From assembly GCA_030268105.1 (NCBI GenBank), contig BSDZ01000023.1, positions 1,612,001-1,676,000 on the forward strand: a DNA stretch of 64,000 bases, written 5' to 3'. The stretch comes from Volvox africanus. Taxonomy: Eukaryota > Chlorophyta > Chlorophyceae > Chlamydomonadales > Volvocaceae. Below are positions 1-37,579 of this stretch, in pieces. Below the pieces are notes generated by a model. It was not told the DNA's origin. It saw only the letters and a program-made list of their open reading frames with translations, and did no database searches. The position numbers were made by a program, and so were the translations under genes. Within the stretch, counting starts at the first letter, position 1. Every line of letters starts with the position of its first letter.

Positions 1-2296
1 CTGAAGCATCTTGAGCACGTGCTTGAGGTGATGAAGCGGGAGCAATTGTTTGCTAAGCGCGCCAAATGTTTTTGGGCGCAGCCTCAAGTGGAGTATTTGG
101 GCCATATTGTATCGGCCACGGGAATAAGGATGGACCCACAGAAGGTAGCTGTGGTTCGTGAATGGCCCGCGCCTCAGAACCTCACTAAACTACGCCAGTT
201 CTTAGGTTTGACCAACTACTTCCGTAAGTTTATTAATAAATACTCCATTATTGCGGCCCGCTTACAAATCTGACACGGAAAGGAGGTTTCGCTTCTCTCG
301 AGGCCTGGACACCCGCAGGCCAGCGGGCATTTGAAGAGCTCAAGCAAATCGTCGCCAACGACGTTACCCTCTTTTTCCCTGATTACTCGTTGCCGTTTCG
401 TGTTGTGTTTCGTGTTGCCGTATCGGATGCTTCCCTGCATGGAAGTGGTGCTGTATTGTTGCAGGAAGGACGACCGATCACCTTCATGAGTAAGAAATTC
501 TCGGGTGCGGACACCCGATACACGACCGGAGAACAGGAGCTGTTGGCAGTTCTACATGCTCTAAAGGAATGGCGCTGCTACCTTGAAGGCCGCCCTTTCA
601 CACTGAAGACCGACCACAAACCGCTGACATTCTTACAGAGTGTCCCCACGCTCAACCGACGACAAGCCCGATGGATGGAGTATCTATCGCATTTCGACTG
701 TACATGGGAGTATATCGCCGGCAGGATTAATATCGCTGACGCCCTCAGTCGACACCCATCACTACATGCCGCGATTCTGGCAGCACCGGTTACCCGTTCG
801 CGCCGTCAGGAGGTGCCGAAAGCAGCAGACCTTGCACAACGGCTCAAAGCGGCGTATGAAGCAGATCCATGGTTCGCTACACCAAGCAATGTGGAACATC
901 TACGCAAGCGCAGCGATTTATGGTTGCGGACGGATGGCTCGACAACGCAAATCGTCATGCCGAACGATGACGCTCTGTGCTACGATCTTCTTGCTCGGTT
1001 CCACGAGGACCTGTTAGCAGGACACCCTGGAAGCACGCGTTTGGCAGAGCTAGTACGACGCTCATTCTGGTGGCCGCGCGTGGTGAAGGATGCGGAAAAC
1101 TTCGTGCAAAGGTGCAGTTTATGTCAGCGCAACAAAGCATTATCCGGTAAGGGCCAGGGTTTATTACAACCTTTACCCATACCAGATGCCCCTTGGGAAA
1201 GTGTTTGAATGGACTTCGTAGTCGCGCTACCCAAAACTGAGGGGGGATACGACACAGTGTTCGTCATGGTCAATCGCTTGACCAAGATGGTTCATTTAGC
1301 CCCCTGCACCTCGTCTTGCACTGCTGAACAAACAGCACGTTTATTTTTCGATAACGTGGTCTGATTGCATGGCATTCCTAAAAATGTGATATCCGATCGC
1401 GGCGGTCAATTCACGTCTAAGTTTTGGGAAGGGCTATGTGAACTTGTCGGTATGCGCATTCATTTGAGCACAGCGTATCATCCACAATCCGATGGGCAAA
1501 CCGAACGCATAAATCGCACGTTGGGCGATATGCTAAGGAATTTCGCGGGATGCACACCCTCCGTCTGGGATACGTTTCTGACTTTGGCAGAATTTGCGCT
1601 TAACAACGCTGTTAACCGCTCGACAGGTCAAAGCCCTTTCTTTCTGAATTATGGATTCCATCCTGCGCTACCCGTGTGGCAAGAGTTGGAGGTAAATATC
1701 CCAGCGGCTAAAACCTTTGCCAAGTCGTTCCTATCCCGCATGACAAGGCATGTTTGGACGCGGCCCAACAACGGACGATGGACTACTATAATAAATCCAA
1801 ATGAGACGTAACATTTTTGGTGGGACAAATGGTTTTATTGAGCACTAAGAATCTGCGTTCGCTTGCTGACGGTTCCCGAAAATTACTACCTCGCTGGATT
1901 GGTCCATATCCCGTTGTTCGCATGGTAGGGAATGTAGCTGTGGAGCTATCCCTACCTTCTGACATGAATATCCACCCCACGTTTCATATCTCTCTCATCC
2001 GTCCTTATCGCAGCACAGCGCCCGTTACAAACAACACTGATGCCCCTGCAGTAATGGACCCCGGTCCCGAGACCTGGATCGCAGGCAAGCAAAAGGTGTA
2101 TGATGTGGAGCGGATACTGGATTATCGGGTTCGTCGTATAGGTCGACAGCGACGAAAGCAGAAAGTGCACGAATATCTGGTCAAGTGGACTGGCTATTCT
2201 AGCGAGCATAACTCTTGGGAGCCGACGCGTAACTTCTCGCCAGAAATGAAGCCCCTTTTGGAGGAAGCTCGTTTACATGCCACACAGACCCAATGA
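1..2296 (+). pseudogene. Broken gypsy pol: RT end, RNase H, integrase, chromodomain
   Basis: Four open segments in order encode one decayed polyprotein. Segment 19-273 is the RT thumb/connection (FLGLTNYFRKF). Segment 390-1208 holds RNase H (VSDAS, GEQEL, TDHKPL, ADALSRHP) and the integrase HHCC zinc domain (GHPG, CSLCQRN). Segment 1209-1811 is the integrase core, with Asp in MDFV, Asp in SDRG and Glu in QTERIN. Segment 1817-2296 is the GPY/F-like part and a chromodomain (VHEYLVKWTGY, NSWEP). Breaks seen: a 1-nt frameshift near 255-270, in-frame TGA at 1206 and near 1362, and a frameshift near 1740-1815. The conserved VDRL of the integrase reads VNRL. No functional product is expected. Confidence 0.9.
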
Positions 2297-2340
2297 TCTT
2301 TGCAGTTGATGCTGTTCGATGCAGCAAGGACGCTGCATAT

Positions 2341-2354
2341 GGGAGGGGGGATAG
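2341..2354 (+). other. Polypurine tract of A1
   Basis: The purine run gggagggggg followed by atag sits directly before the LTR start. This is where plus-strand priming occurs in LTR elements. The same tract precedes the A2 LTR at 11773. Confidence 0.75.
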
Positions 2355-2355
2355 T

Positions 2356-3170
2356 TGTTGTACGCCGGTTCGATCACCATTCACACCAAAATAGGCCGCA
2401 ATACATGCGAGCATTCTGAAGCATGATATAATCATATTAGCATGATATACTCGAGTATATCTAGCTAATCAGGCATGTCGCATTATCATTTATGACATCG
2501 CGCTGTCGGTCAACGTGTTTGACTCGAGGCTGATAATTAATGCGCGATCTATCTGTTGGCACAATATCCCACGTGATAATACTTTAAATATTATTACCTC
2601 ATCCGTGTCATAAACCATACGCGTATGCGAGAATGCGACGATCGCGATGGTTGGGTCGGCAACTGAATATCGATATTCGGACCTTCGCATTTTGCATGCG
2701 TTGCATCCATTAATATCACGATTTACGCGATATTCAGAACAGTGCTACGAAGGTACTCACACTTGAGATCGGAATCCAGTGAGACCTGTACTGCACATCG
2801 GTATCGCGACGTGATAGGTGTGAGGACGGCCGCCTAGAGACCGAAGTCGGCTTGATGCTACTTTGGATTAAGTACTCACGTACTTGACTCTATCTAATTC
2901 GCATGCATACGATATACTCATTTAAATTCGGCCTGAGCTATTCCAGCATCTCATCTTCGGCCGGATGATGAACATTGCCCGCGGGGTCTGACGGCCGCCT
3001 ACCGATTTGTAAACGAAGTCTATTGTAAGTTGAATCTTTCCTTATTGTAGAGTCTTCCGCTGTCACTTTGCTCGCATTGGATTGCCTTGCTGTTCGTAAG
3101 CTTGGTGTGCACTTAGCTAACATCCAGACGTGCAGATTCAGTGCATGGTTGAAGAAGGAAGGATACAACA
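2356..3170 (+). repeat. 3' LTR of A1 (subfamily A)
   Basis: This 815-bp LTR starts TGTTGTAC and ends ATACAACA, giving the usual TG...CA termini in a short inverted repeat. Near-identical sequence recurs at 11788-13156 (+) and 16381-17185 (-), which fixes both ends. The interior is AT-rich with small palindromes around tatcgatattcgga. Confidence 0.9.
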
Positions 3171-3279
3171 AATATATCGCCGTCAGAAGTAATATTGCTG
3201 ACGCCCTCAGTCGACATCCGTCACTACACGCTGCAATTCTAGCAGCACCGATTACCCGTTCGTGCAGTCAGGAGGTGCC
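3171..3279 (+). pseudogene. RNase H scrap of an A-like element
   Basis: The sequence matches A1 positions about 711-817 and reads the RNase H end (ADALSRHPSLHAAILAAP). It is caught between the 3' LTR of A1 and the LTR of B. It is most simply the remnant of an older copy into which the flanking elements inserted. Confidence 0.85.
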
Positions 3280-4117: not shown

Positions 4118-4565
4118 TTCATTGCCTAACTGTCTCTCTTTGTCTAATCGGAAGTAGGTTCTTTCTATGGCGAGTTCCAGCGACGAACCACGAGGACCAC
4201 TAGATACTTTTGCCGAAGACCTAGGTTGCACCGTTTTGGACGCCGCCGCTTCCGGTTTGTAATTGTTTAATTGCTTTTGCTTAGATTGCTGCACTTGTTG
4301 TGTAAGTGTACGCTCTGAGTCGCAGGTAATCTCAGTGCACCGGCATTGCTTGCCGCGGCGACTGAGACCGGCTTTCGTCCGGACCATTTGACGACTCTCA
4401 TCGCCCAAACTACGGAGATCAGGACTCAGCTGGGCAAGTACTTGCTGAGTTTACTGAATCTTCTCAAGAGTACTGTCGGTAGGCTCACCGAATCGTTTTG
4501 TACTCTTGCCCTTGCAATAGAAGTCGGCTTCTATTACGCAAATCTAGGGTATTGCTTCGTGTTCC

Positions 4566-5801
4566 ATGTCCATGGAACGTGACGATACGCCGCACACTAG
4601 CTTAGCTAGCCAACCCGATTTTGTTGTGGCTGCTAGAGCGCCGGATAGAGGTCTTGAGACTGTTGGCACGCGAGCCACTCAAGAGCCCCTTGTCCTTCAG
4701 AACCCTGCTCACTTAATTGTGCCGCATTCAGCAGTTAATACGAATATGGACAACACTGCTGGTCCACGGGTTCTGCCATTACCTCAAGCGCGAGGTCACG
4801 ATGACATCCCTGAGGTGATGAGATTGTCAATTCTTGTTCCTAGGCTCAATATCTCGCTGACTGAAAAGACACCAGGACATAGCATAGCCGATGCAACTCG
4901 TGCATACGTGCGTGACGCTAAAAAGTATCTCCAGGCTGTTCATGGTGGCGATAATGATGGTATCAGGTGTCTCTTCGTTGGTAACACCCTCGAGGGCTCA
5001 GCGAAGGACTGGTATCGCGAATGGACCACCGCCCGGGGCGACTATACTTTTGACGAGATGATCGCCGCTTTGCTCGCACGGTTCGCTACTGAGGTGCAAG
5101 CACGTGATGTGGAGGCTCGTAAGGTCTTGGCGGCCGGTAGTTACCACATGCGTCGGGGTGAAAATGTACCTGCGTACCAGTCACACTTCGAAGCACTAGT
5201 GACCCCCATTGCTGATCTCACCGAAACCGAACGTGTCTTTTGGTTTAAGCGAGGCCTGACGAAACTGTTGGCTAAATGGTGCGCTACTGACTTGGCTGGG
5301 GTGCCGATCAAGTCGTATGATGCCTTGGTCACTTTTGCTAAGGGTACGGAGATACGACTCCTTGCCGGTGAGGAAGAAGTCAAGTCTGTCCCTCGTGCAA
5401 ATGCCGTGCAAGTGCAGGATCCGCCTGGGGAAGCTGTAGCTCTCGACCAGGAACTCGGAGCGACCCGCCCCACACCTACTGCCGCGACGCGACGCAGCAA
5501 CCGGCAACGCAAGGCGTGCAGGGGCGCTAGCTCGGGTGTCCGCGGGTCAGGGGGAGCAGGTCCGAGCTCGGACCCGGCTAAGAGCAGGAAGCGTGGTGGT
5601 GCGCCGTCGTCGGCAGCCACACAGCGCTCTGACCCCAATGCGAAGCGGACTCGCACGGATGACTCGTTTATGCCTAAATGGAATTGCAATCGTTCCGAAT
5701 TCGAGCGTCGGAAAGCGGCCAATGTTTGTCTACGGTGCGTGGAGAGTCATCCTACGAAGGATTGCCCGTTACTGCCGCCGTTTGTACCTCAGCCGAAATA
5801 G
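4566..5801 (+). CDS. Gag polyprotein of element B
   Basis: This intact 411-aa ORF encodes the structural protein that packages element RNA. The central part (about residues 110-270) is a retrotransposon-gag capsid-like domain, with FVGNTLEGSAKDWYREW, a helical FDEMIAALLARF stretch and RRGENVPAYQSHFEAL. A basic, Gly/Arg/Ser-rich linker follows. Near the C-terminus is a zinc knuckle CLRC-VES-H-PTKD-C, which is CX2CX3HX4C, one residue shorter than the usual CX2CX4HX4C. The first ATG (4566) is used; a second ATG lies two codons on. It ends in TAG, after which the same frame continues into a methyltransferase-like segment. Element C gag (14660-15862) is its closest relative here, with a similar capsid region and knuckle. 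Confidence 0.9.
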   Translation: MSMERDDTPHTSLASQPDFVVAARAPDRGLETVGTRATQEPLVLQNPAHLIVPHSAVNTNMDNTAGPRVLPLPQARGHDDIPEVMRLSILVPRLNISLTEKTPGHSIADATRAYVRDAKKYLQAVHGGDNDGIRCLFVGNTLEGSAKDWYREWTTARGDYTFDEMIAALLARFATEVQARDVEARKVLAAGSYHMRRGENVPAYQSHFEALVTPIADLTETERVFWFKRGLTKLLAKWCATDLAGVPIKSYDALVTFAKGTEIRLLAGEEEVKSVPRANAVQVQDPPGEAVALDQELGATRPTPTAATRRSNRQRKACRGASSGVRGSGGAGPSSDPAKSRKRGGAPSSAATQRSDPNAKRTRTDDSFMPKWNCNRSEFERRKAANVCLRCVESHPTKDCPLLPPFVPQPK

Positions 5802-6160
5802 GGGCTTGCCCGGGTTCCTGTGGAGGGGACACCGCCCGGGATTTCTGAACTAACGCGTGGTCGGTGGTCATCCTTACGGCCAGCCGTGAAGGCATTGTTG
5901 CCTTGCGTACTTGGACACATTGAGCAAGTAATTGCGTGAATCATCACGCTTGACGGACGCACGGGACTTCTCTGCTTCGATCTGTTGTGTAATTTGTTTA
6001 CACCTCACCGTCCCCTGTCGTCTATCGATCTGTCTAACCACGTGGTTTTGTTCATCCCCCCGTCTCTGCGTGAGATGTCGGAACAGTTGGCCGTTTACAG
6101 GAGATGTAGGCGTCAATATCCAGGCACCGCCGCATGTGTATTACTCCCCGCTTTCTGTCG
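5802..6160 (+). pseudogene. Start of pol of element B with a decayed adenine-methyltransferase-like domain
   Basis: Directly after the gag TAG the same frame stays open for about 45 codons, meets a TGA at 5936-5938, then continues to about 6160. Pieces such as ITLDG, LCNLFTPHRPLSSIDL, VVLFIPPSL, YRRCRRQ and ACVLLPAF line up, in order and spacing, with FTFDA, LCPRFASPSNPFATHNL, FAWINPPYN, YISCKHK and AVFVVPKW in the pol of element D. It is therefore the same phage/DIRS Dam-like domain at the same place (between gag and protease). Its catalytic NPPY has become IPPS, so it is dead. The reading is cut at the B/D junction. The homology call rests on alignment by eye. Confidence 0.6.
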
Positions 6161-9100
6161 GTGCAAGGCAGAGGCAAAGCAGCTGGCACTTTCGAGGGTA
6201 TATGCAGGTCAACCGGCACACGCGGTTGCTGGACACCATTAAGCAAAAATGGTGTCATACCTGTCGAACGTTGTTTGGAGTTATTGATAGCAAACTCAAT
6301 CAACGGTAAGTGATCATCCCAATCATCCTGATTAGGGGAGATATAGTGCCGTAAGGTCTCTTCCAGTAAGCGGTTCATTCGCTCTGTTTGTCCATCTGTT
6401 TGTGGATGGAAGGCTGTGCTCATATGGAGGTGGGTGCCCAATAGGCGAAATATTTCCTTCCAGAAATTGCTTGTAAAACGTGGGTCCCGGTCAGAGATAA
6501 TGTTCTTTGGAAGGCCGTGCTGCCGGAATACAGTGGCTACAAAAAGGCGAGCCAACTCTTCCGCTCCTGCGGTCGTGTGGGTGGGAGCAAAGTGCGTCAT
6601 TTTGCTCAGCCGGTCCACAAACACTACGATCGCATCATGCCCATTGCGAGTTGTTGGTAGCTGGGTTATCAAATCCATTGATATGCTCTCCCACACGGAA
6701 GAAGGTATGGGGAGCGGCTGCAGCAAACCACCCGGGTTAGTGTTGGTTGGTTTGTTATGCTGACATTGAGGACAAGACTTGACGTAGGCCTTCACGTCAG
6801 TATCTAGTCCAGGCCACCAGTACGTTTGTGCGATCGCTTGTTTGGTGCGGTCAATGCCGCGGTGGCCAGCGCATGGGGTATCATGATACTCTTTCATGAT
6901 GACCCGTCGTAAGTCAGCTTGATTAGGGATGTAAATCTGGGACCCATTGTACCAGAAGTTACCCTTCTTTTTGAGCCGCAGCTTTGCTACCTTAGTTTTC
7001 GTGAGATTGAGATCACCGTCATACCCGCGGATGATTCGGTGTCCTAAGTCGCTGTCAATCAGCGCGGCAGAAAGCAAGTTGAGCACCACGTCGTGGACCC
7101 GACTGATAGGGTCAGCTACGTTCACCCGACCAGGGCGATACTCCCATTTAAATGTGAAACGTGATAATCGCTCCATCCAACGAGCTTGGCGGCGGGATAG
7201 CTTATCCGCGCTTTTCTGTTCTTGGAGGTATACCAGTGGTTGGTGATCCGTGATCAACGTTACATCACTGGCGCCTTCAAGGTAACAACGCCACTCTTCC
7301 AGGGCTAAGACAGTGCCGAGGCACTCTTGGTCTGTTGTCGAGTAGTTGTACTCTGCCTTATTGAATTTAGAACTGGTATAGGCGACAGGGTGGTCATCCT
7401 GCAAGAGGACGGCTCCTGTGCCATGTATTGAGGCATCAGACCAAACCGTGAAAGGTTTATCAAGCTCGGGGAGTTTAAGTACTGGTGCATTTGTCAAGGC
7501 ATGCTTCACACCCTGGAAGGCTGCCTTGCAGGCTTCGGTCCAGTAGAAGGGCACTTTCTCACTGGTAAGGGTTGTGAGGGGGGCCACAAGGGAGGAATAA
7601 CCCTGAATAAACCTCCTGAAATAATTGGCTAAGCCAAGGAACGCCCGCAGTCGCTTAATATCCGTGGGGACAGGCCAGTCTTTAATGGCTGTTACTTTGC
7701 GGTCGTCCACCTTTAAGCCTTCTTGGCTTACTTTGTGGCCAAGGAAGTGCAGTTCGAACCGGTTGAACTGACACTTCGACAATTTTGCCTTGAATTGGTG
7801 CTTTCGGAGCAAGGACAGTACCAAACGGAGGTGCTGTTCATGCTCGGCCGGGGTCTTACTAAAGACCAGTATATCGTCCAAGTACACTAGCACAAATTTG
7901 CCAATGTAGTCAGTGAAGACACGATTCATCACTGCTTGGAACGTTGCAGGGGCATTGGTCAGTCCAAAGCAAAGTACCTTAAACTGAAACTGGCCCATGC
8001 CTGGGGCTATGAAGGCCGTTTTCTCCACATCCTCGGGAGAGATCAGTATTTGATGATACCCCTGCTGTAAGTCCAGGGAGCTGAAAATGGTAGCTCCTTG
8101 GAGTTGGTCGAAAAGGTCCGTAATATTGGGCATGGGATACCGCCGTTTGATGGTCAGTTTATTAAGCGCACGGTAGTCTAAGACCATGCGTAGTCCTTGC
8201 CCATTTGCCTTTTCGACAAAGAGAACTGGAGCCCCATAGGGTGAGGTAGAGGGTTCGATATATCCCTTATTGAGCAGTTCAGTAACTTGCTTCTTGACCT
8301 CTTGTTGCTCCAGTTGGGTGAGCCTATAGGCTCGTTTAGCGGGTGGTATGGCACCATCCACTAAAGGAATCGTGTGACCAATGTCCCGGTCGGGGGGGAG
8401 GCCTTGAAGGTCCTCGAATACATCCTTGTATTCCTCCAGTAATTCTGATAACTTCAAATTAGCTAGGAGATTATTCCCACCGGAACTGGGGTCAGGAGTT
8501 GGAGTGTGCTCCTCTGCTTGCACAAGTAGGAGATAACTCCGTGCTCCTTTAGCAATTCGTTTGCCTGCTGCTTTCGCAGATACCGTCTCGACAGTAGTCG
8601 CTGCATAAAGTGTTGCAGTGACATAGTTCATGAGGGTAATCGCATCAAGGTTAGCGTCGATACCCGGGGAAGACCAAAGGGATGGCGTAAACGTATACGC
8701 ATCATTTGGCTTCTTATACACTGTCAGGGTATGAGTTGCCCAGCACATTGTGGCTTTTCGTTTTCCTAACCAGTCATTAGCCAGGATAATATCAACACCT
8801 GGGACATCTTGCTTTAGAACAAGGAGTTTGACTGTGTCGTGGAACTTGTCAATTTGAAGATTGGGAACAACTGAGCCCTCAATCAGTTCTGTGTTGCCAT
8901 TAGCCACTTTAACTGAGCTGGTAAGTGTGGGTTTGAGAGCAAGGGCCATTTTCGTAACGGCTGTTAGGGATATAAACCCGTCTGTTGTATCTTTACAATT
9001 GGCACCGGAATCGGCCAAGACTTTGCAGGCCGTTTGGCACAGTTGAGCATCAAAGATCATAGAAGGTGTAGAACCAACTATGGAGTTCAAGTGCACGGTA

Positions 9101-9624
9101 GTGGACGGTCGGTCATACCATAGCTGGAGAGGCCATGGGACACCGGGCATAAGCTCCCGTACTCCTGTGCAACTTTTCTTCAGGAACAATTGTTTCCCTG
9201 GTGCATATGTTTTGATCAGGCGAAAGCCTGCTGCTCGCATACTGTGCTCTATTGAGCTCCACTTGGGGACTACAAAGACTGCAGAGGTATTTTCTGGATC
9301 TTTGTGTTTGCAGGAGATATAGTGTTTTTGCCATTGAGCAATGTGATTGTAAGGAGGATTAATCCAAGCAAACTCACCCGCAAGATTATGGGTCGCAAAT
9401 GGGTTTGATGGAGAGGCAAAACGTGGACAGAGACTATTATTGCCCGAATCGTTACATGTGGCGTCAAAGGTAAATTGACGGCCGAGTTGGGTCTCAACCT
9501 GACGGAATTCATCAGGCCGGAACATCCGAGCAGTCTGAGGGCTGTCGGTCATGGGCAACACAAACTCTCCATCTGGTGCAACCAGTTTAACTGGTTCACA
9601 TTCCTCCACACGCTTGCCAGGGTC
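6052..9624 (-). CDS. Pol polyprotein of element D: MTase-like, protease, RT, RNase H, integrase
   Basis: This is one open frame of about 1190 codons. Numbering from the codon at 9609, residues 30-150 resemble DNA N6-adenine methyltransferase of the phage Dam/DIRS kind (FTFDA 46-50, NPPY 84-87). The aspartic protease begins at ADSG (199-202). RT has SLDL (D513) and YLDD (576-579). RNase H has D725, the QE pair near 762 and D788. Integrase has H909, H916, C946, C949 and the triad D979, D1040, E1076. All key residues are present. From about residue 1150 (position about 6160) the ORF reads antisense of element B, so the true C-terminus is missing. No ATG lies near the start; translation by readthrough of the gag TAG at 9625-9627 is the simplest route. 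The first internal ATG is at 9552. Confidence 0.92.
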   Translation of the reverse strand, partial: DPGKRVEECEPVKLVAPDGEFVLPMTDSPQTARMFRPDEFRQVETQLGRQFTFDATCNDSGNNSLCPRFASPSNPFATHNLAGEFAWINPPYNHIAQWQKHYISCKHKDPENTSAVFVVPKWSSIEHSMRAAGFRLIKTYAPGKQLFLKKSCTGVRELMPGVPWPLQLWYDRPSTTVHLNSIVGSTPSMIFDAQLCQTACKVLADSGANCKDTTDGFISLTAVTKMALALKPTLTSSVKVANGNTELIEGSVVPNLQIDKFHDTVKLLVLKQDVPGVDIILANDWLGKRKATMCWATHTLTVYKKPNDAYTFTPSLWSSPGIDANLDAITLMNYVTATLYAATTVETVSAKAAGKRIAKGARSYLLLVQAEEHTPTPDPSSGGNNLLANLKLSELLEEYKDVFEDLQGLPPDRDIGHTIPLVDGAIPPAKRAYRLTQLEQQEVKKQVTELLNKGYIEPSTSPYGAPVLFVEKANGQGLRMVLDYRALNKLTIKRRYPMPNITDLFDQLQGATIFSSLDLQQGYHQILISPEDVEKTAFIAPGMGQFQFKVLCFGLTNAPATFQAVMNRVFTDYIGKFVLVYLDDILVFSKTPAEHEQHLRLVLSLLRKHQFKAKLSKCQFNRFELHFLGHKVSQEGLKVDDRKVTAIKDWPVPTDIKRLRAFLGLANYFRRFIQGYSSLVAPLTTLTSEKVPFYWTEACKAAFQGVKHALTNAPVLKLPELDKPFTVWSDASIHGTGAVLLQDDHPVAYTSSKFNKAEYNYSTTDQECLGTVLALEEWRCYLEGASDVTLITDHQPLVYLQEQKSADKLSRRQARWMERLSRFTFKWEYRPGRVNVADPISRVHDVVLNLLSAALIDSDLGHRIIRGYDGDLNLTKTKVAKLRLKKKGNFWYNGSQIYIPNQADLRRVIMKEYHDTPCAGHRGIDRTKQAIAQTYWWPGLDTDVKAYVKSCPQCQHNKPTNTNPGGLLQPLPIPSSVWESISMDLITQLPTTRNGHDAIVVFVDRLSKMTHFAPTHTTAGAEELARLFVATVFRQHGLPKNIISDRDPRFTSNFWKEIFRLLGTHLHMSTAFHPQTDGQTERMNRLLEETLRHYISPNQDDWDDHLPLIEFAINNSKQRSTGMTPFLLNGVQQPRVPVDLHIPSKVPAALPLPCTDRKRGVIHMRRCLDIDAYISCKRPTVPTSHAETGG

Positions 9625-11216
9625 CTATTCGTGCATTTTAGATTCGAGTCGGGCAGCAAGCGCCAACTTCTTTTCCGCCTCAGCCTTGATCGCCTTGGAA
9701 CAGTCCCCTACGTGGTCCGGCCAAGACTGGCCTGGCTTCTTAAAGCCATGGCAATAGCGGCACCGGGTACTAGGAGGCTTGTCAGAAGTGTGGTCGGTCC
9801 GGGGCTTCTTGCTCAAGGACTGCCAGCCCTGTTGAAATCGGGAAATAGGGCGTTTTTGGTAGGGATTTCTGGATTTAGGGGTGGTTACCGTAGCCGCTTT
9901 CAGCTCAACGGTGGCAGTCTTATCTTTCCCTGCCTTCCACCGGACCTCTTGGCCGACTGCATATAGGATGCATTTATCTAAATCCTGCCAGTCCTTGCCC
10001 TCATCGTCGGTTGCACACCGACCCCGAAGTGTGGAACTAAGCCTTTGATGTACCAGCTAATCTGGTCGGCTTTATCCATGTCCTTAGCTTCGCGTAGGAC
10101 ATCATGGAAGCGCTGTGTGTACTCAGCAACGGTTTCAGCAGTTTTCATGTCGTATTCGTGAGAGTGCAAGCGATCCCTTGCTGCCATGGCAGTGTTGCGT
10201 TGCGTGTCCCCATATTGCAGGAGAAATGCCGCCCTTAAGGTTTCGCGTGTGAGGGGTTTCTTGCCCGACTTGTGCATCTCTAGGACATCTGCTGCCCAGA
10301 CCTGTGCTTTGCCCGTTAAGAAGTACACTATGTGCTCAAATGGGTCCATGTTCATCAGGTCGAAATATTGGATGAGTACATTGAACCAGGACCGGGTGCA
10401 AGTGATGGTGCTATCCTTCTTCCCAGAAAATTTGGGGGGATGCGGAACCCGTCTATTAGGGCTTACCTCACTTGGCCGGCTGGATTTTGGGGCGGTTGTC
10501 TGAGAATCGCTACCCCCAGCTAGGTGTGCGGTTGCTTCCACCCAAAGGGACTGAACCTCCTCGAGTGTTGGCACCGGAACTAGGTGTTTCTCTAGGATGG
10601 CTTGCAGCGTTGTTTGCTGGAGGGCATCCTTAGGCAAAAGGGTTGCGATGCTCGACCCAGCGATTGTGGAAATAATATCTAGGATCGCTTTTTTGCGTGA
10701 GTCGGCCGCTTCAGATGATTGTGAACGCTCTGAAAGGCGTTCGAAAATCTGTTCTAATAGGGCTCGCGTGCGGTCCGTATCCGCGCGGAGGGCACCCATC
10801 TGATTTTCGAAGGACTCCTTAAGTTGCGTGATTTCGCTTTCTAATGCAACAACACGCTTATGGGTTGTGTTGCGCATTGATTCCGCGACGTGTTGGGCCG
10901 CGCGCGTTTGTTCTGGTGTGCGCTGCGGCAGACCATTGGGAGGTAACGCGGCATCTCCATCATCCGTCATTGGTTCCTGGGGCCCGCGGATAATAGGAAT
11001 ATTACTATCAAAATTATTGGTGGGATTTACTGGAGCCGAAGGCACCGTTTCCGTAGGTTCAATGTTTATCCGATGTGGTCGTCGATTGGCGGCTATGGCG
11101 GCTAAACACTCTAGTCGCAAAATTTTATTGAGATTTTTACGTTTAAAACGTAAGAGTTCCTTCCGCGCTTTTTGCTGCGGAGGATTTGTGGTTGTGGTGG
11201 GAGTGTCGCGTGGCAT
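9625..11216 (-). pseudogene. Gag of element D, broken by one frameshift
   Basis: The minus-strand ORF from ATG 11216 codes a basic N-terminus, a coiled-coil-like stretch (VALESEITQLKESFENQM) and a capsid-like domain (FNVLIQYFDLMNMDPFEHI, WAADVLEMH, YTQRFHDVL). Near 10003-10010 a single-base loss throws it out of frame. The correct frame resumes and continues to a TAG at 9625-9627, passing a zinc-binding stretch CRYCHGFKKPGQSWPDHVGDC-like in layout (Cys-X2-Cys ... His-X3-Cys). The downstream gag segment and pol are in the same frame, separated only by that TAG. If the frameshift were absent, gag would be about 530 aa. Confidence 0.8.
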
Positions 11217-11270: not shown

Positions 11271-11416
11271 TGTAGCAGCCCCTTTCAGTATGCTACTAGA
11301 TTTGTGCGGAAGCGTAGCTTTTGTAGATTTAGAGATAGCTCGCAAGTAAGTTAGCGTCGCGAAATTGTACATCTATTGGGAATAATCGGTGACAGCGGAG
11401 TCTTGAACTCCGAACA
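11271..11416 (-). repeat. 5' LTR of D, 146 bp
   Basis: On the minus strand the repeat starts TGTTCGGAGTTC and ends GGCTGCTACA, with TG...CA termini, and is followed by a primer-binding site and gag leader. It contains a small inverted repeat, GGAGTTCAAGACTCC. The second copy that would prove the ends is missing, so the outer boundary is set by where A2 sequence resumes at 11417. Confidence 0.6.
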
Positions 11417-11728
11417 ATTAGTAGTGTGATTTGCCCTTATCGTGGCACAGCACCCGTTACAAACGACACCGATGCCCCCACAGTAATGGACCCCGGTCCC
11501 GAGACCTGGATCGCAGGCAAGCAAAAGGTGTACGACGTGGAATGGATACTGGATTATCAGGTTCGACGTGTAGGTCGACAGCGACGCAAGCGGACGGTGC
11601 ACGAGTACCTGGTCAAGTGGACTGGCTATCCTAGCAAGCATAACTCTTGGGAGCCGACACACAATTTCTTGCGAGAAATGAAGCCCCCATTAGAGGAAGC
11701 TCATCTACGTGCCACACAGACCCAATGA
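11417..11728 (+). pseudogene. Chromodomain end of A2 pol
   Basis: The segment reads ICPYRGTAPV, then a linker, then a chromodomain with VHEYLVKWTGY and NSWEP. It matches A1 residues encoded at about 1990-2296. The chromodomain targets integration to modified chromatin in chromoviruses. Everything upstream is missing, so this is a fragment. Confidence 0.85.
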
Positions 11729-11787
11729 TCTCTGCAGTCGATGCTGTACGATGCAGCGAGGACGCTGCATATGGGAGGGGGGATAGT

Positions 11788-13156
11788 TGTTGTACGCCGG
11801 TTCGATCACCGTTTATGTCCAAGTAGGCTGGAATTCATCTGAGCACTACTGAGCATGATATAAGCATATTAGCATGATATATTCAAATATATATAGCTAA
11901 TGTAGCATGCCGCATATATCATTCACGACATCGCGCTGTCAGTCAACATGCTTGACTTGAGACTGATATCAATGCGTGAATCCACTATTGGCATAATATA
12001 TCACGTTATAATATTTCAAATATTATTACCTCATTCGTATCATGAACCACACGCGTATGTGGAAATGCAATGATCGTGATGGTTGGGTATATCGATATTC
12101 AGACCTTTGCACACTGCATACGTTGCATCCATTAATATCACGGATTATGCGATATTCAGAACAGTGCTATAATAGTACTCACACGTGAGATCGGAATCCA
12201 GTGAGACTTGTACTGCACATCGGTATCGTGAACGTGATAGGTGTGAGGACGGCCGCCTAGAGACCGAAGTCGGCTCGAAGCTACTTTGGATTAAGTACCC
12301 ACGTACTTAACTCAATCTGATTTGATTATATACGTTTACTCATTTATATTCGGCCTGAGCTATTTCAGCATACCATCTCCAGCTGGATGATGAACATTTG
12401 AGCACTATGGAGCATGATATAATCATATTAGCATGATATATTCGAGTATATCTAGCTAATCAGGCACGTCGCATTATCATCCACGACATCACGCTGTCGG
12501 TCAACATGTTTGACTCGAGGCTGATATTAATGTGCGATCTATCTATTGGCATAATATACCACGTAATAATATTCCAAATATTTCTACCTCTGTGTCATAA
12601 ACCATATGCGTATGCAGGAATGCGACGATCGCGATGGTTAGGTTGGCAACCGAATATCGATATTCGGACCTTCGCATATTGCATGCGTTGCATCCATTAA
12701 TATCACGGATAACACGATATTCAGAACAGTGCTAAGATAGTACTCACACTTGAGATCGAAATCCAGTGAGACCTGTACTGCACATCGGTATTGTGACGTG
12801 ATAGGTGCGAGGACAGCCGCCTAGAGACCAAAGTCGGTTCGACGCTACTTTGGATCAAGTACTCGCGTACTTAACTCAATCTGATTCTATTATATACGTT
12901 TTACTCATATATATTTGGCCTGAGCTATTTCAGCATACCATCTTCAGCCGGATGATGAACATTGCCCGCGGGGTCTGACGGCCGACTACCTATCTGTAAT
13001 CGAAGTCTATTGTAAGTTGGATCTTTCCTTGTTGCTGAGTCTTCCACTGTCATTTACTCGCATTGAATTGCCTTGCTGTTCGTAAGCACGGTGCACACGT
13101 AGCTAACATCCAGACGTGCAGATTCAGTGCATGATCGAAGAAGGAACGATACAACA
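11788..13156 (+). repeat. 3' LTR of A2 with an internal tandem duplication
   Basis: It starts TGTTGTACGCCGG and ends GATACAACA like the A1 LTR, but is 1369 bp instead of 815. Positions about 11848-12397 and 12398-12960 are two diverged copies of the same roughly 550-bp LTR interior. The first copy stops at gatgatgaacatt and the second restarts at gagcactatgg. Confidence 0.85.
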
Positions 13157-16377: not shown

Positions 16378-16380
16378 ATT

Positions 16381-17185
16381 TGTTGTATCCTTCTTCAACC
16401 ATGCACTGAATCTGCACGTCTGAGTGTTAGCTACACGTGCATCATGCTTACGAACAGCAAGATCATTCAATGCAAGCAATGTGACAGCGGAAGACTTATC
16501 AGCAAGGAAAGATTCAACTTACAATGATCTTCGATTACAGAATAGAAGTCTGCCGTCGGACCCCGCGGGCAGCATTCATCATCCAGCTGGAGATGGTATG
16601 CTGAAATAGCTCAGGCCGAATATAAATGAGTAAAACGTATATAATAGAATCAGATTGAGTTAAGTACGTGGGTACTTAATCCAAAGTAGCTTCGAGCCGA
16701 CTTCGGTCTCTAGGCGGCCGTCCTCGCACCTATCACGTTCGCGATACCGATGTGCAGTACAGGTCTCACTGGATTCCGATCTCAAGTGTGAGTATTATAG
16801 CACTGTCCTAAATATCGCGTAATTCGTGATATGAATGGATGCAACGTATGCAGTGTGCAAAGGTCCGAATATCGATATTCGGTTACCGACCCAACCATCG
16901 CGATCGTCGCATTTCCGCATACGCGTGTGGTTCATGATACGAATGAGGTAATAATATTTGAAATATTATTACGTGATATATTATGCCAATAGTGGGTTCG
17001 CGCATTGATATCAGCCTCGAGTCAAACATGTTGACTGACAGCGCGATGTCGTGAATGATAATGCGGCATGCTACATTAGCTAGATATATTCGAATATATC
17101 ATGCTAATATGCTTATATCATGCTCCGTAGTGCTCAGATGAATTCCAGCCTACTTCGACATAAGCGGTGATCGAACCGTACAACA
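16381..17185 (-). repeat. 5' LTR of C (subfamily A)
   Basis: This 805-bp repeat in reverse orientation is bounded by TGTTGTATCC and CCGTACAACA (plus strand). It is clearly homologous to the A1 LTR along its whole length. Confidence 0.9.
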
Positions 17186-17332
17186 AATACCACGAGCCTT
17201 CTTCTCCTTAGCCGGATTAAGCGCCTCGTGAACGTTATCATCATCATCGATGGTGTCAATCGCATCCATAGACTCAAGTCAGCCCTTAACACGCTCAGCA
17301 ACTACCACATAGTTCTCTGCACTGAACGTCAT
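17186..17332 (-). pseudogene. Possible Ty1/copia gag N-terminus, truncated
   Basis: The minus strand from ATG 17332 reads MTFSAENYVVVAERVKG, a stop, then LESMDAIDTIDDDDNVHEAL and NPAKEKKARGI. This looks like the start of a copia-type gag, cut off by the LTR of C. Family assignment is from pattern memory only. Confidence 0.4.
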
Positions 17333-29289: not shown

Positions 29290-31278
29290 TTGTGTAGTTA
29301 TCTAAAAATGCGGTGATGCGCAAAGCTCAACGGAGCCTTACAACAAGGACGCACCGTTAGTTACCTCACTTATATGAGAAGTAAACAGTAAAACTGTAAC
29401 ACAATCATCGGCCTGCATCCGTTGTTGACCGGCTGTTGGCACGGCTTCTTGACCCTAACGGAAACTGGACTTACACTCCGTAACCGTGAAAAACGACTTG
29501 ACTATGTTACGGTTACATTCTTCTTCCGAAAATAATAAAAACCAAGTAGCAATGCGTTTGCCTGTATGAAGGCATAAAATAGTGAACAGCACGGAACACC
29601 GATAACTGTGCAAGGGCGTCGACGTTTAGCCCTCCTTGTCTTACGTTGTCATACTTGCCTGTTACCGCATGCCTTTACGTCGCTTCAGGCACGTGGACAG
29701 ATTGGGCGCATTCTACCCTAGCAGGGCTCTTCTCCGAAAGCACTTGACGGGACATCGCCAAGCAGCATACCTTCGTCCTCCTCTGCCTTCCCAAATACAA
29801 TCGTGGTGTGTTGGTGCGCATCACCCATGCCCAAACACTGTCCAGACGGGCCCAAGCGACGGGCCCATGCTGGCAGCCTTGTCAGGATCTGTGCGGCGCG
29901 TTCGGGTATCCAGGCACGCCGCAGCCCTGGATGTCCTCCGGAGGGTGACTCATCAAGCGACGATTCCCGTTCCACCAGTGATCGCCGAGCCCAGTAGTTC
30001 GGAGGGGCTCGTTCTCAGGCACGTATGGGCACCATGTGTGTAGGAATGCTTTAAAGAAATGTAAGTTATGTACACAAGAGACCTCTCTTATTATGGCAAT
30101 CAGATGAAGGCCTATATTGTTGCGTAGCATCAATCTATTGAGGCTTAACGCGGCAAAGAGTTTGCTTTAATGCATTGGAGTCTGTCATTAATATGTATGG
30201 GATCTTTGCCAACTTAATGCAAGATAGGATTGCGGTGGTCTGATGCGGTGGTCATCCACGGTTAGTAACCTTTGGTTGATGACACCGCTACGTTTTGCAA
30301 GCTATTGATTTTAACAGGATTGATACATGTCAGTTTAAGATCTCGTTATAATGATCCAAAGCAAATTTCTGATAGCTCTGTTAGTGAGCGAGCAACATGT
30401 TCGGATGTAGTGGACCTTAATTCGTTGCTGTAGCAGTTGGGCCGTACGGCAACATAATCAGGCACTGCTTCCAAAAGCTAATACGCCTGTCAACCCAATG
30501 TTATTTCTGATTTGTGATAATTAATGATACAAGTCGCGATGGAGAAGAACGATGTGAAGGGCAAGGTGTTGAAGGAATGCTTTGGGCTATCTTGGATGGC
30601 CCCTTGCCAGGTTAACCTGCCGGGAACGTGGCTGCGGCGAGGCGATGCTAATTAATCCATCCCCTTGTAGTCGTGTACTTGATCAGCGCACCAGCCCTCT
30701 CAGAACGCTATCCTCACCTATCCCAAACCATGTGTCTTGGGCCCCGTTGGATTCTCCTCGCAACTCCTCGCACAGGTTCCCTACCCTGGAGTTCCGGAGC
30801 CTGCTCCTGAATGCCATAGGTGCGACTTTATCTCCCTGCCTAATAGTGGTGACGTCGTACCGCAGTGCTGCGCAGAGACATGGCTTTCACCTGCTGGATC
30901 GCCTTCTGAGAAGAGAAGACGGTTCAAGTTGAATGCAACCCAAATGCGCTACCACTATTCCTGCTCTCAAAATGCACCACACAAGGGATCCTTGCCAGAC
31001 CGCCTTATTTCGCCTGCAACCCAAATGAAATCACGCACTCCTCTGTCATGCAGCTTTACCATGGGTCTGTATACACGATCGGCCACGTGCTGGGTGGCCG
31101 CAGGGTGGCTTGATCAGCTGTCGTGAGCATCGCAACGGCAATAACACGGCGCAATACTTAACAAACGAAAACGCTCTCTCGCTCTTGCTCTCTCTCACAT
31201 ACACGTGCGCGCGCGTACTTGCGTTTTGTACAGTCCTTCTATGGGCCATACTCTCGCGTGTGTTGAATTTATTCTGAG
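29290..31278. other. Divergent intergenic region
   Basis: It separates the starts of the hydrolase gene (minus) and the nuclease-like gene (plus), so both promoters should lie here. An Arg-rich ORF at 29668-30043 (plus, 125 codons) could be a small gene or a 5' exon, but it has no known domain. A second open stretch near 30700-31120 is also unassigned. Confidence 0.4.
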
Positions 31279-34200
31279 ATGGAGAAACCGGCCGTAAGCC
31301 CGCATCCGACCACACGCCACCCTGTCTCAGGCCGTGACACGTTCCCCGACCGTGGAATATGGAAGCGCCACAAAGTAGCCCTCTGTGGCCTTCTATTGCA
31401 CCTCGCCGACGGTGACCTGCCCTCCTATGGCGCTGCACTGGAGTCCCTGGTGGAACAATTCTTCACGGAGGACAGAGACCGTAGGGGCCCGTCCGGGCGG
31501 CGGCAAGGCAGGGCGCGGGGACGAACACGGACGAGAGCTAGCCGCCGGGAATCCTACGGCGACGGTGCTGGTGCGAGTGACGGCAACTCTGGCGTGGCCA
31601 CGACAACTGCCGATGACCATGCAGCAATGCGAAACGCTGGAGGTGACACGTCACTTTTGAGTGGTGCATCTTCCGTGAGGTTGTCATGTAGGGCTACCTC
31701 GCCAAGTTGTGTTCTGGATTATGGTGTCAACGCGGCATCCGCGGGCAATACAGCAGCCATCCGATGTGACGGCGGCATCGATGGCATAGCCGGGGATATG
31801 ACAGGCAGGACATTGTCCTCGTGGTCAGGTGAATCGCCATCATCCTCCAGTGACGATGATCCCCCAGTCCTTCGATGGGTGCAAACAAAGCAGCGGTCAC
31901 AAACTCTCGGCGCGCCCCACGGCACGGCAGCGGCGTCGAGGCAGGAGGACTTCGTAGTCGCATGTACGCACGCACGGGACGAGCAGCGGCCTCAGACACA
32001 ACAACAACAACAACAACAACAACAACAGCCCGAGCTTGTGCAGCACCAGCGGCTGGAGGGTGATTCAGAGGAGCAAGCACCTGTTTCAGGGGTTCCCCAT
32101 TCCAGGATGCGCTCTGCGGCGGCACGGTGGACCAGCCTCCGGACCCGGATTGATGCCTGGTGCCGAGCCACAGTGGGTGGACACGCTGCTACTTCTGGCG
32201 CTGTCGCCGGCCAGCCAATAAGGCAACCGACGTCGATGGGATGTCGCAGTTATGGCTGTAGCGGTGGCAACAGCAGTAGCACCGCTTTCATGACTTTGCG
32301 GCCCCTGCTGGAGCAAGTATTGGGGATGGGAGAGCCAGCGCCGCTGGTGGATATCCGTCGTAACGGCAGCCACACAGAGCTGCAGGTGAGATAAGTGAAG
32401 GGCTGCGTCCAGTGGGTGCCTGAACGGTGGTGCTAAATCGTTTGATTTAACAATTTTAATTGGTCAATTGGTTTGTTCGTTTGTGGGTAATAAGGTGGAT
32501 AATAAGCAAGCAAGCCGGTAGTTGGTAACCAACACAAACGACATGTGAGTTAAAACGAAGAGGAAGTGAATGACATGCGCAAGAAGATATGGGATGCGGA
32601 ATGCGAATACGCATGGGGTGCACCGCACAGTGTCCTGGGGAAACGATAACTCGAATGCAATGGCGGCCTACAACGGCAACCATTATCTACAATTACATGT
32701 GTACCTTTCTCGCGCAACATACGATGTTGCAGACTGTTAAACCTATGTTGAGAGTGAGCAACACTCATATACGAATGAATGACAGAGTAAGTAATACGAC
32801 CCAGGGAGGGGCCGGGCGCTTTGCTAACTTTAACAACCTTGACGACTTCTAAGTGACGACTTATAAGTTGCTGTCACTTGCCGGAGGGAATCACCTGAAC
32901 CCTCACCGGGTGAAGGGCCGAACATTAGTTTCCACACCCTTTCCTTTCTTTTCGCCCAGGAGAAGTCAGTATGGTCACTACCATTGCCGGTGCTACCGCT
33001 GCTGTTCTGTTGTTGCTGCAGTTACGGCTGGTCCCACCTCAACATGCCCATGCCTGTGAAGGAAACGTAGCAAATGTGTGCAGTGGGGGTTTAAGTACCG
33101 GGTAATTGCACTCCGTCACCCCACCTGTCCTGTTCCTTCAGCGCCAGCACCAGGACTCGCCTATGCATCTTCCCCACCTGTCCACCTCCCAGGTTGCATC
33201 ACTGATGGCGGACCAGCTGCCCGAGGGGTGGCGGCTGATCTGCGGAGCCACCATCCTAGCCGTAGATGGCCAGACCTTCGTCAACCGGAAGCGCCTCAAG
33301 GGAGAAGCGGACCTCCTCTTAGTGGACCCCGATAATGTTGTGCAGGTAATGAACTGGGCTTGGTGTTAGCGGACCCGTGGGTCATGCTGCTTTCTTTAGC
33401 TATCTGTCGCGGCTCATTCCTAAATGATTCTTATGTAATTCAAACCAGTAGGTTTTTTGTTTTATGTGTAAGAAACTGTGATGCATGTGGAGGGTTCGTC
33501 TTTTGAGCCGCTTTTACCTTGTGGTAGCGGCAAGTCCTCCTGTATATTCTCCTATAGACTTTCCTCTGGTCCCTGGAGGATGTGTTCAGAGGAGCAATGT
33601 TACGGCCATGACCACCTAGGCTCCTGTGAGACGCAAAAGGCACTGATGTGTGAGCTCTGCGACAACAATGCCTGACGACTGCAGCGGTGTTACGCGCCCC
33701 TTTTCCCGTTGGCCCATACCCGAGAGGCTTCCTGTCACTAGATTAAGTCCATTGTTCTCGTACCCTTACCCCGATACATCGTCCCATCGGTCACCAGGCG
33801 GTGGTGGAAGTCAAAACCGCCAAGGGCAACCCATATGTGGCCCTGTATGATGATATCAGCAAGGTAAAAGATCCTAGGCACAGGATAAGCAGTTGTTATC
33901 CTCTGTTCGTTAGTTGTTAACGCATGTATGCTAGAAGGCACAGTCTTTCGAGCGAGATCAGTGTTTGGGTGTCTGCATTTGGGCTTCCGTGCTTCCGTTT
34001 CATGTGTCCTCATGCATCTCCATGATCCCCTTTCCTCCTGTGCACGGATGTTACCGGCCTTCCCTTCTCGCTGCTCACAAGCCCCTTTCTCTCTCTCAGC
34101 TTTGTCGATTGCCACCGAAGGTTTTACGAGTGCCCAAGCTCTCACAGCTCCCACGAGGCCCTGACCCGTGCTTCCTCGAATTCTTGGCCGCCGTCTATCT

Positions 34201-34854: not shown

Positions 34855-35980
34855 ACGTCAGTGAGAGCCGCCTGTGGCCATGACACGTCGTGGTGGAGTA
34901 CAGCTGTGCAGGCCATGCGGCCATTGGATACGCCGCCCGCTGATGCGGTGATCCGGGAGACACTCACTTTGCACGGATGGGTGTATGGAAAGCAGTGCAG
35001 GACGGCGTGTGTTTTTGGTAGGAAGCGGCACGTTGGGGTTTATGCGAACCTACCGTGTGTGGTTTGGGGTGTGAATAGTGGATTTTTTTGTTGAAGCGAG
35101 GGTGTTGCCCCTATTTGGACGTATGACTCGTGCAGGGCACACTGTATTTTATCCTCCCATGTCTGAGTGGGAAAGAGCGTGTCGTGTGGTGTCCGCTTGT
35201 ACATGTTATCATCCATGAATTTAAACGGTTTGCGATCCTGACTTGTTTGCTTCTAGCACGCCTGTTTGTTGATCTGCCTTTGACCGGTTGAAAGTGTCTA
35301 TCAACTTTTCATTGGATCGTATTGTTTCTGTTGCCTGTCGGATTGCTTTTAGCTGCAGCACGAGAGGGGGAGCAAAGCTGGGCTTTTGGATGAAGATTGG
35401 ATGATAGTCTCGGCGCTGACGTCCCAGAATGGGATCTTTAAATTCTCACGATGCCCTAACGCTGGCGATCGGTAGACATTTTCTCCTTCCGTTGTGCGCT
35501 CCGAGCTCACATGGGTTTTGGATTTATCTCCATCCCATGGCTGCAAGGGCTGTGTGCTTGCTGGCAAAATTGCGGAGGGGGACATGCGTTAGCGTGTGTA
35601 AGGGACGAGGGTGCCATAGCGTATGTTGGGAAAATGCGGAGCGGAGCCGTGCTGGCACAGCATTACATGGGGCGGAACAAGGTAGTGGCTCCATTACCAG
35701 CTTCGGCGGCAATCATGTAAAAAATGCCAGCTCCGTTGGTTCTCTACATGAGCGTAATAATATTATAATTTTCAAGGGAAATCAGGTACAAAGCCTACAA
35801 GGTACAAGCTATCAAGTCACAAACTTCTCGATCTCATGAACAATCCTGCCGTATGTTTCCGTTTCAGTTCTAGTTGGGAAACAATATTTTAGGCCCGATT
35901 CCCATATCATCTCATACGTATACGTCGTGAAGCCATTCTATTCGACAACATTCTCACATCGTTCATTTTCCTTTGATATA
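34855..35980. other. Spacer upstream of RCC1
   Basis: No supported gene. An in-frame ATG at 35927 precedes the RCC1 start used here and would add 18 residues. Confidence 0.5.
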
Positions 35981-37579
35981 ATGACTCAAGGAATTAAGAC
36001 CGGGAAGCCAAAGGCGGCTGCTCAACCTGACGGGGATAATGATAAATATGAGCCTGTTGCCAAAGTCACGACCTCTGTCGAGACGCGTGGTACGCGTGGG
36101 ACCAAACGCCGTATCCAGGCTGAGGGTGACCCCGAATTATCAAGTTCAACAATTGCCTCCGAGCAACCATCAGCTAAACGGCGTCGCGCTGCCTCGAGGG
36201 CTCACAAGCCACTAAGCCTATTTCCTGGACAGTTTGCCCAAGAGCTATTCATGTTTGGAACGAATGGCTTCGGAGCACTCGGCTTGGGGGATCCAGATGT
36301 AGTTGACGACGCAGAAGCATCGGAAAAGCGCACCAGAATTCCAAGACCCAAACTGCCTGTGCTCGAGGAGGTTAAATTTGTCTATGTGGCTTGCGGGGGC
36401 ATGCACACCGTTGCCCTAACCACCGATGGTGATATTTACACCTGGGGCGCGAATGATGAAGGGGCGCTCGGCCGCAAGACATCTGGAACTTTTTGGGAAA
36501 ATGAGCCGGAGGACGTGAAGGGCGACAGCTTTGTTCCCGGCCAGGCGCACCTGCCCAACGGCTTGAAGGCAGTGCAGGTCGCCGCTGGTGACGGGTTTAC
36601 GTTTGCAGTTGGCACGGACGGCCACCTCTACGGCTGCGGCCAGTTCAAGGATGAGCTTGGTGCGCTGTCAGGGTTTACACCGGAGGTAAAGATTCAAGGT
36701 CTTCTGACGCTGATCTGGACACCCGAAACTCCACGAGACCGGATCAAGAAGCTTAAGTGCGGGGCACGCCATGCTGTGATTCTTACCCGCCGTGGCGACG
36801 TGCTCACGTGGGGTTGCGGCAGTCAAGGCCAGCTCGGTCGCGTCAAGCCATACAACCAGGCAACGGAGTACCAGCCGACAGCACTAGAATTGTTTAAACC
36901 CACTGAGGTCGCCCATCTAGAAGCCCTACTTGGCAACACTATGGTGCATGATATTGCATGCGGTGGCTACAATACGTTTGCTATTGGAGAAAACGGGGCC
37001 GTAGCTGCGTGGGGCCTGAATAACAGCGGTCAGCTGGGCATCGCAAATGGCAGTGTAGATAACGTCATCCGGTGGGAACCGGTGGCTGTTAACTCGCTCA
37101 AGGGTGTTATCCAGATGGCTGGCGGCGAGAAGCACACACTGGCACTCACTAAAGGCGGAATGTTGCTGTCTTTCGGAGCCTCCGTGTATGGTATGCTTGG
37201 GCGTCGTGATGTGGATGCTAAAGCCAACGAGGTCCACGTGGAGCCAACACCAGTGGATGGGCTCGACGACATTAAGGTGGAAGGGATTGCTGCTGGTACC
37301 AACGTGTCCGCTTGCATCACCGCCGATGGAGATGCGTGGTTTTGGGGCTCAAATACAAACTTGCAGCTCGCCAAGGGTCCAAATGATGACGACGAGCCGC
37401 TGCCGAAGAGAATGGGGCGCGTTAAGGATTTTGGGTACCGCCGTGTGAACTTTGTGTGCTTCGGCGGGCAGCACGCTGCATTGCTAGCAGGGCCGAAAGG
37501 GGAGGTGGCGCCCGGTGGCGGCGGGTCTGGGCCGACCAACAGTACCGGAGCAGTTCCCTCCAAGCCCCCTCCAGTTTAG
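35981..37579 (+). CDS. RCC1: RCC1-like regulator of chromosome condensation (Ran GEF)
   Basis: RCC1 is the chromatin-bound exchange factor that loads GTP on Ran and so sets the nuclear transport gradient. This single-exon ORF codes 532 aa from ATG 35981 (550 aa from the upstream ATG at 35927). The N-terminus is charged, with a nuclear-signal-like KRRR patch (SAKRRRAASRAHK). A seven-bladed propeller follows. Its blades are marked by CGGMHTVAL, AAGDGFTFAV, CGARHAVIL, CGGYNTFAI, AGGEKHTLAL, AAGTNVSACI and CFGGQHAALL, and by WG/FG strands (TWGANDEGALG, TWGCGSQGQLG, AWGLNNSGQLG). The His-bearing blade signatures and the loop layout match true RCC1 rather than a partial repeat protein. It is intronless while its neighbours are intron-rich. 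The tail is Gly/Pro-rich. Confidence 0.92.
   Translation: MTQGIKTGKPKAAAQPDGDNDKYEPVAKVTTSVETRGTRGTKRRIQAEGDPELSSSTIASEQPSAKRRRAASRAHKPLSLFPGQFAQELFMFGTNGFGALGLGDPDVVDDAEASEKRTRIPRPKLPVLEEVKFVYVACGGMHTVALTTDGDIYTWGANDEGALGRKTSGTFWENEPEDVKGDSFVPGQAHLPNGLKAVQVAAGDGFTFAVGTDGHLYGCGQFKDELGALSGFTPEVKIQGLLTLIWTPETPRDRIKKLKCGARHAVILTRRGDVLTWGCGSQGQLGRVKPYNQATEYQPTALELFKPTEVAHLEALLGNTMVHDIACGGYNTFAIGENGAVAAWGLNNSGQLGIANGSVDNVIRWEPVAVNSLKGVIQMAGGEKHTLALTKGGMLLSFGASVYGMLGRRDVDAKANEVHVEPTPVDGLDDIKVEGIAAGTNVSACITADGDAWFWGSNTNLQLAKGPNDDDEPLPKRMGRVKDFGYRRVNFVCFGGQHAALLAGPKGEVAPGGGGSGPTNSTGAVPSKPPPV

Follow-up and report, generated by a model that had tools for sequence, protein, structure and literature searches.

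We analysed a stretch of 64,000 nucleotides from Volvox africanus (contig BSDZ01000023.1; the whole stretch is hereafter "the window"), in which a Ty3/gypsy retroelement on the minus strand carries, at the start of its pol frame, a domain resembling the Dam-type adenine methyltransferases of phages. The element has gag upstream and a pol in which protease, reverse transcriptase (RT), RNase H and DDE integrase follow one another. Its features, all on the minus strand, are as follows (LTR, long terminal repeat; HMM, hidden Markov model; AF2, AlphaFold2).

11275..11434, candidate remnant of the 5' LTR, 160 bp, with a primer-binding-site-like sequence, TGGTAGCGAGGGTCTGAGC, just inside
9981..11216, N-terminal part of gag, in a frame other than that of pol (Retrotrans_gag PF03732, E 7.5e-7)
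9628..10056, gag, C-terminal part, read in the pol frame and containing a Cys/His-rich stretch
9625..9627, in-frame TAG at the gag/pol border, context GAA TAG GAC
6055..9624, pol frame of 1190 codons (methyltransferase-like domain, protease, RT, RNase H, integrase), with homology ending at about 6118
9106..9513, Dam-type adenine-methyltransferase domain, pol residues 38-173 (family HMM, Pfam Dam, PHROG 111, AF2)
9349..9360, motif IV, NPPY, the expected catalytic motif, pol residues 89-92 (from the translation; in the alignment to phage enzymes it stands opposite their NPPY/NPPF)
9001..9012, DSGA, active site of the aspartic protease, pol residues 205-208 (from the sequence; RVP_2 E 3e-5, residues 195-305)
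7729..8211, RT core with YLDD present (PF00078, E 1.2e-33)
7156..7464, RNase H (PF17917, E 1.7e-30)
6403..6918, integrase, HHCC zinc domain and core (PF17921, E 3.9e-24; PF00665, E 2e-6, 28.4 bits for a cut-off of 32.6)

Scanning pol against Pfam with hmmscan gave, in order, Dam (residues 40-107), RVP_2, RVT_1, RNase H, the integrase zinc domain and rve. A sequence-only reading of this DNA had described all these enzymes as lying in one frame with their active-site residues intact. The frame and the active sites stand, as read from the translation (protease ADSGA, RT YLDD, RNase H D..E..D, integrase HHCC and D,D,E), but the end of the integrase does not. Aligned with P0008, a full-length relative of 1364 aa, the window pol matches as far as P0008 residue 1178, i.e. 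to about window position 6118, and the last 186 residues of P0008, with the integrase C-terminus and the chromodomain, have no counterpart beyond that point; both have therefore been lost from the window copy. Chromo was matched in 27 of the 38 rows of set A4 (E≤0.01), and the window copy ends before the position of this domain. The gag frame changes within the overlap 9981-10056, a TAG stands between gag and pol, and no second copy of the 160-bp LTR candidate, i.e. no 3' LTR, lies within the window, which leaves the 5' LTR call unproven. The element is thus not an intact one.

Identity of the domain and its relatives

The segments FTFDA, LCPRF, FAWINPPYN and AVFVVP, named by the sequence-only reading, are all present and occur in the order given, in the region that separates gag from the protease. 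The domain, at 9106-9513, reaches slightly nearer to the protease than the interval proposed for it, 9160-9522. Dam was the only Pfam family found at E≤1 for the domain piece (hmmscan, 172 aa, E 1.5e-5), and it was recovered with a 151-aa piece at E 1.2e-5 (Pfam, E≤0.01). PHROG 111, a DNA methyltransferase, was likewise the only PHROG at E≤1 (E 1.7e-6). The domain-family HMM gave 180.9 bits (E 8.3e-55), the window row being one of its five seeds. When a profile of the 23 canonical-motif rows was compared with six phage methyltransferases by hhalign, they aligned over 104 columns with a probability of 99.0 and an E-value of 5.9e-18; 17 of 20 phage matches are annotated as methylases. The AF2 model over 9085-9537 has a methyltransferase fold, with a pLDDT (predicted local distance difference test) of 96.4. 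A profile match and such a fold had been set beforehand as the test of the adenine-methyltransferase idea, and both were found. From the profiles, the phage comparison and the predicted fold, we consider the domain almost certainly a homologue of the Dam-type adenine methyltransferases. Searches with the single domain sequence gave no match under E 1.2 in the PDB and no match in IMG/VR.

The NPPY of the window domain fits the [ND]PP[YF] pattern of Dam-type homologues. In protein searches, P0004 came first, followed by P0005, P0006 (Q84UZ3, from Chlamydomonas reinhardtii) and P0007; the PF05869 label is precomputed for P0004, P0005 and P0006. A four-pol profile matched 383 proteins among 7993 candidates scored and, among the matches listed (120 of 383), 16 of the 120 proteins bear a precomputed PF05869 label. 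A survey of gypsy relatives, as the sequence-only reading had suggested, did find the domain elsewhere: the domain profile, iterated from its five seeds and applied to 123 polyproteins (that of the window included), detected it in 75 of them. In 60 of these 75, the protease signature [DN][TS]GA follows at most 66 residues after the domain. Rows without a domain are not all true absences, since truncation, or a start close to the protease, affects many of them. Of the 49 rows outside the domain alignment, nine have at least 400 residues before the RT; one, P0086, shows a partial match (E 1.2e-8), and the other eight, of which five are named Haematococcus lacustris, have no significant match to the domain. 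The listing for P0086 also includes PF00293, which is unusual in a gypsy polyprotein, and those for P0009 and P0010 show a PHD finger in addition to the chromodomain.

Over 69 rows, domain identity and RT-core identity were correlated (r 0.51; none of 999 permutations was as high, the maximum being 0.147), and the nearest neighbour was the same by domain and by RT core in 40 rows. Because the identities correlate and the neighbours agree to this extent, domain and RT appear to have been inherited together for a long time, with some room left for exchange or error.

Possible role of the domain

DIRS retrotransposons have a Dam (PF05869) domain of unknown function in pol, according to PMC3783388 and PMC3266345, and DIRS/PAT-like elements are reported in Chlamydomonas and Volvox in the latter. 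The likeness lies in a Dam domain inside the pol of a eukaryotic retroelement. DIRS elements, however, have a tyrosine recombinase, no aspartic protease or DDE integrase, and the methyltransferase after RNase H, whereas the window domain comes ahead of the protease, and the gypsy pol that holds it has a DDE integrase. A DIRS assignment was rejected, the pol scan showing protease and integrase families and no tyrosine recombinase family. KnitGypsy-Dnmt3 of Klebsormidium nitens and the SymbioDIRS- and SymbioLINE-Dnmt elements are presented in PMC5890265 as retroelements with a DNA methyltransferase whose catalytic residues are conserved. The first is, like ours, a Ty3/gypsy element, but these enzymes are of the C5-cytosine type, structurally unrelated to Dam. 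A cytosine methyltransferase of this kind was discarded for the window element, since the Pfam scan of pol returned no C5-cytosine family. Phage Dam-type enzymes (PF05869, PHROG 111) are co-linear with the gypsy domain over most of its length and share NPPY/NPPF and the fold, but they are stand-alone proteins with about 25% identity to it.

The nearest case is Q84UZ3, named 'Reverse-transcriptase', with the same domain order, NPPY, and 57% identity over 62% of the window pol. Its Dam is known as a precomputed PF05869 label only; because it carries this label, databases already contain a gypsy Dam domain. REM1 of C. reinhardtii is also a relative, with at most a putative link to Q84UZ3. A literature search covering titles, abstract openings and text passages returned no description of an adenine enzyme in a gypsy element. 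In the literature so covered, adenine methyltransferases of retroelements are published for DIRS and cytosine ones for gypsy, and here the adenine kind is widespread in gypsy. Gypsy elements bearing the domain are present in the model alga Chlamydomonas, whose genome reportedly contains N6-methyladenine (6mA), and the domain could cause errors when 6mA writers are annotated in algal genomes.

The explanation we favour, to which we give as a whole not quite an even chance, is that an ancestor of the element acquired a phage-type N6-adenine methyltransferase, which was inherited with pol and methylates the element's own nucleic acid. Long ago, the forebears of this gypsy/chromovirus group would have taken up a domain of the phage Dam kind, which then descended with pol at its place after the nucleocapsid end of gag and before the protease. 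Gag-pol would be produced through bypass of the stop that separates the two, and the protease would free or half-free the domain within the particle. Because the domain would be made in gag-pol beside nucleocapsid and protease, the element's own nucleic acid is the obvious substrate; the domain would meet it there and methylate its adenines, most likely in new cDNA, which might then pass as host DNA or be protected until integration. In branches devoid of the motif, the domain would persist as a nucleic-acid-binding or assembly module. As to catalysis, we rate it somewhat more likely than not in the intact members of the window element's branch, given that six close relatives also have NPPY and that the predicted fold of the domain is whole. 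If the enzyme is active, cDNA is a somewhat more probable substrate than RNA, by analogy with the proposal made for SymbioDIRS-Dnmt3 in PMC5890265. We suggest, more tentatively, that a large and probably algal chromovirus group captured the phage-type enzyme, and that many of its lineages repeatedly lost the motif yet kept the domain, so that what had been an enzyme came to serve the particle in a structural or nucleic-acid-handling role.

Several observations weigh against this explanation. The window piece scores 25.1 and 25.5 bits with PF05869, under the gathering cut-off of 28.1, and is for this reason termed a homologue and not a formal member of the family. The closest solved structure by fold is PCIF1, an RNA methyltransferase, so that DNA may not be assumed as the substrate. 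The window copy is dead as an element. Conservation of NPPY, put forward by the sequence-only reading, holds for close relatives (NPPY in P0004, P0005, P0006, P0008, P0010 and P0012; NPPF in P0011 and P0016) but not for the family at large: a canonical motif IV is found in only 24 of the 72 rows having residues at that position, and 23 of the 72 have none even in a permissive form. With the motif missing from so many rows, methylation cannot explain the retention of the domain everywhere. Even the window element's branch has non-canonical forms, i.e. CVSP in P0007 and P0015, CAPP in P0013, VPNT in P0017 and SPPC in P0021. Finally, the domain evolves faster than the RT core: among the 12 canonical pairs with RT-core identity of 0.70-0.99, domain identity is no more than 39-61% in 11 and 81% in the twelfth, P0066/P0075.

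As many relatives keep the domain where the catalytic motif is gone, it may have become a functional component of the element and not just an enzyme. Taken further, the domain would have served since its capture as a nucleic-acid-binding or gag-pol assembly module in which catalysis is dispensable, the NPPY of the branch being a relic or having a minor function. We think this unlikely. The motif is kept in 9 of the 15 rows compared for the window element's branch, a hand-picked set made of its RT clade together with P0004, P0006 and P0007, which are outside the tree, and leaving out P0014 and P0022 (no motif residues) and P0023 (NVPY, in the clade). At RT-core identities of 0.4-0.6, motif-less domains (the 23 rows without a permissive motif, 7 rows with H-x-P-aromatic/His being excluded) are only 0.19-0.21 alike, against 0.33-0.35 for canonical ones. 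As they are much less alike at equal RT-core identity, they seem to be under relaxed constraint; 4 of the 23 fill just 103-110 alignment columns. The close pairs are also few in number, and only several small clades supply them. An RNA methyltransferase similar to PCIF1, modifying a cap-adjacent or internal adenosine of the element's RNA and so aiding translation, packaging or escape from RNA sensing, agrees with the nearest solved fold and is, in our estimate, quite improbable. The sequence profiles (Dam, PHROG 111) point to DNA enzymes, and similarity of fold does not fix the substrate. PCIF1/CAPAM, the cap-specific m6Am (N6,2'-O-dimethyladenosine) methyltransferase, is a larger cellular enzyme with extra domains, and its sequence similarity to the window domain is not significant: a PDB search with the domain profile gave it at E 0.31, below two NADH dehydrogenase chains (0.13), and the Pfam scan of pol (E≤1) detected no WW or PCIF1-specific domain. 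A resemblance due to chance, or to a few motif words, could draw on the 2.6 bits by which the window piece misses the Pfam cut-off; it is rejected as extremely improbable in view of the independent profiles, the confident fold and the presence of the domain in 74 of the 122 other polyproteins examined.

Neighbouring elements and other features of the window

A second, degenerate domain of the same type lies in another element, hereafter element B, on the plus strand.

4548..5801, plus strand, gag of element B (Ty3_capsid PF19259, E 1.1e-5, 25.3 bits for a cut-off of 29.1)
5919..6158, plus strand, degenerate methyltransferase-like domain of element B, in the frame of its gag, with IPPS at motif IV

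With the family HMM this domain reaches 32.4 bits, whereas the highest score among 40 shuffles of all 1401 six-frame segments was 11.8; a stop codon at 5937-5939 interrupts it. The truncated pol end of the minus-strand element (about 6118) meets this domain, hence the two elements abut or are nested near this point. The window therefore holds a motif-bearing and a motif-less form in abutting elements, and such versions side by side constitute a natural experiment on the role of retroelement methyltransferases. Both gags end with TAG followed by G (9625-9627, minus strand; 5799-5801, plus strand), with pol-type coding continuing in the same frame; readthrough of the stop codon as a route to gag-pol in both is our guess. 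A third gag (15895-14660, minus strand) ends in TGA, and no methyltransferase-like domain was found behind it at E≤1.

Blocks made of a chromodomain and an LTR, from another gypsy family and 84-93% alike, lie at 2003-3173 and 11435-13156 (plus strand) and at 16378-17189 (minus strand), the last being LTR-like only. At 11784-13156 the LTR-like unit shows a partial tandem duplication. The chromodomain open reading frame at 11393-11728 (plus strand) was considered as an inverted reading frame of the minus-strand element; this was rejected, and it is taken as the end of a plus-strand element, because it is part of a block that recurs at 2003-3173. Positions 4-1709 (plus strand) hold a pol that belongs to another gypsy element and shares about 43% identity with the pol studied here; chromodomain-type homology continues from it to about 2236.

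Scans for tRNA and Rfam families found nothing. Five open frames of 331-674 aa have no Pfam match at E 0.01 (48516-50540, 50673-51668, 56473-57687 and 60830-62344, minus strand; 31267-32394, plus strand). The open reading frame at 35840-37579 (plus strand) encodes a long RCC1-repeat protein (WD40_RLD, E 7e-100) and is probably a host gene.
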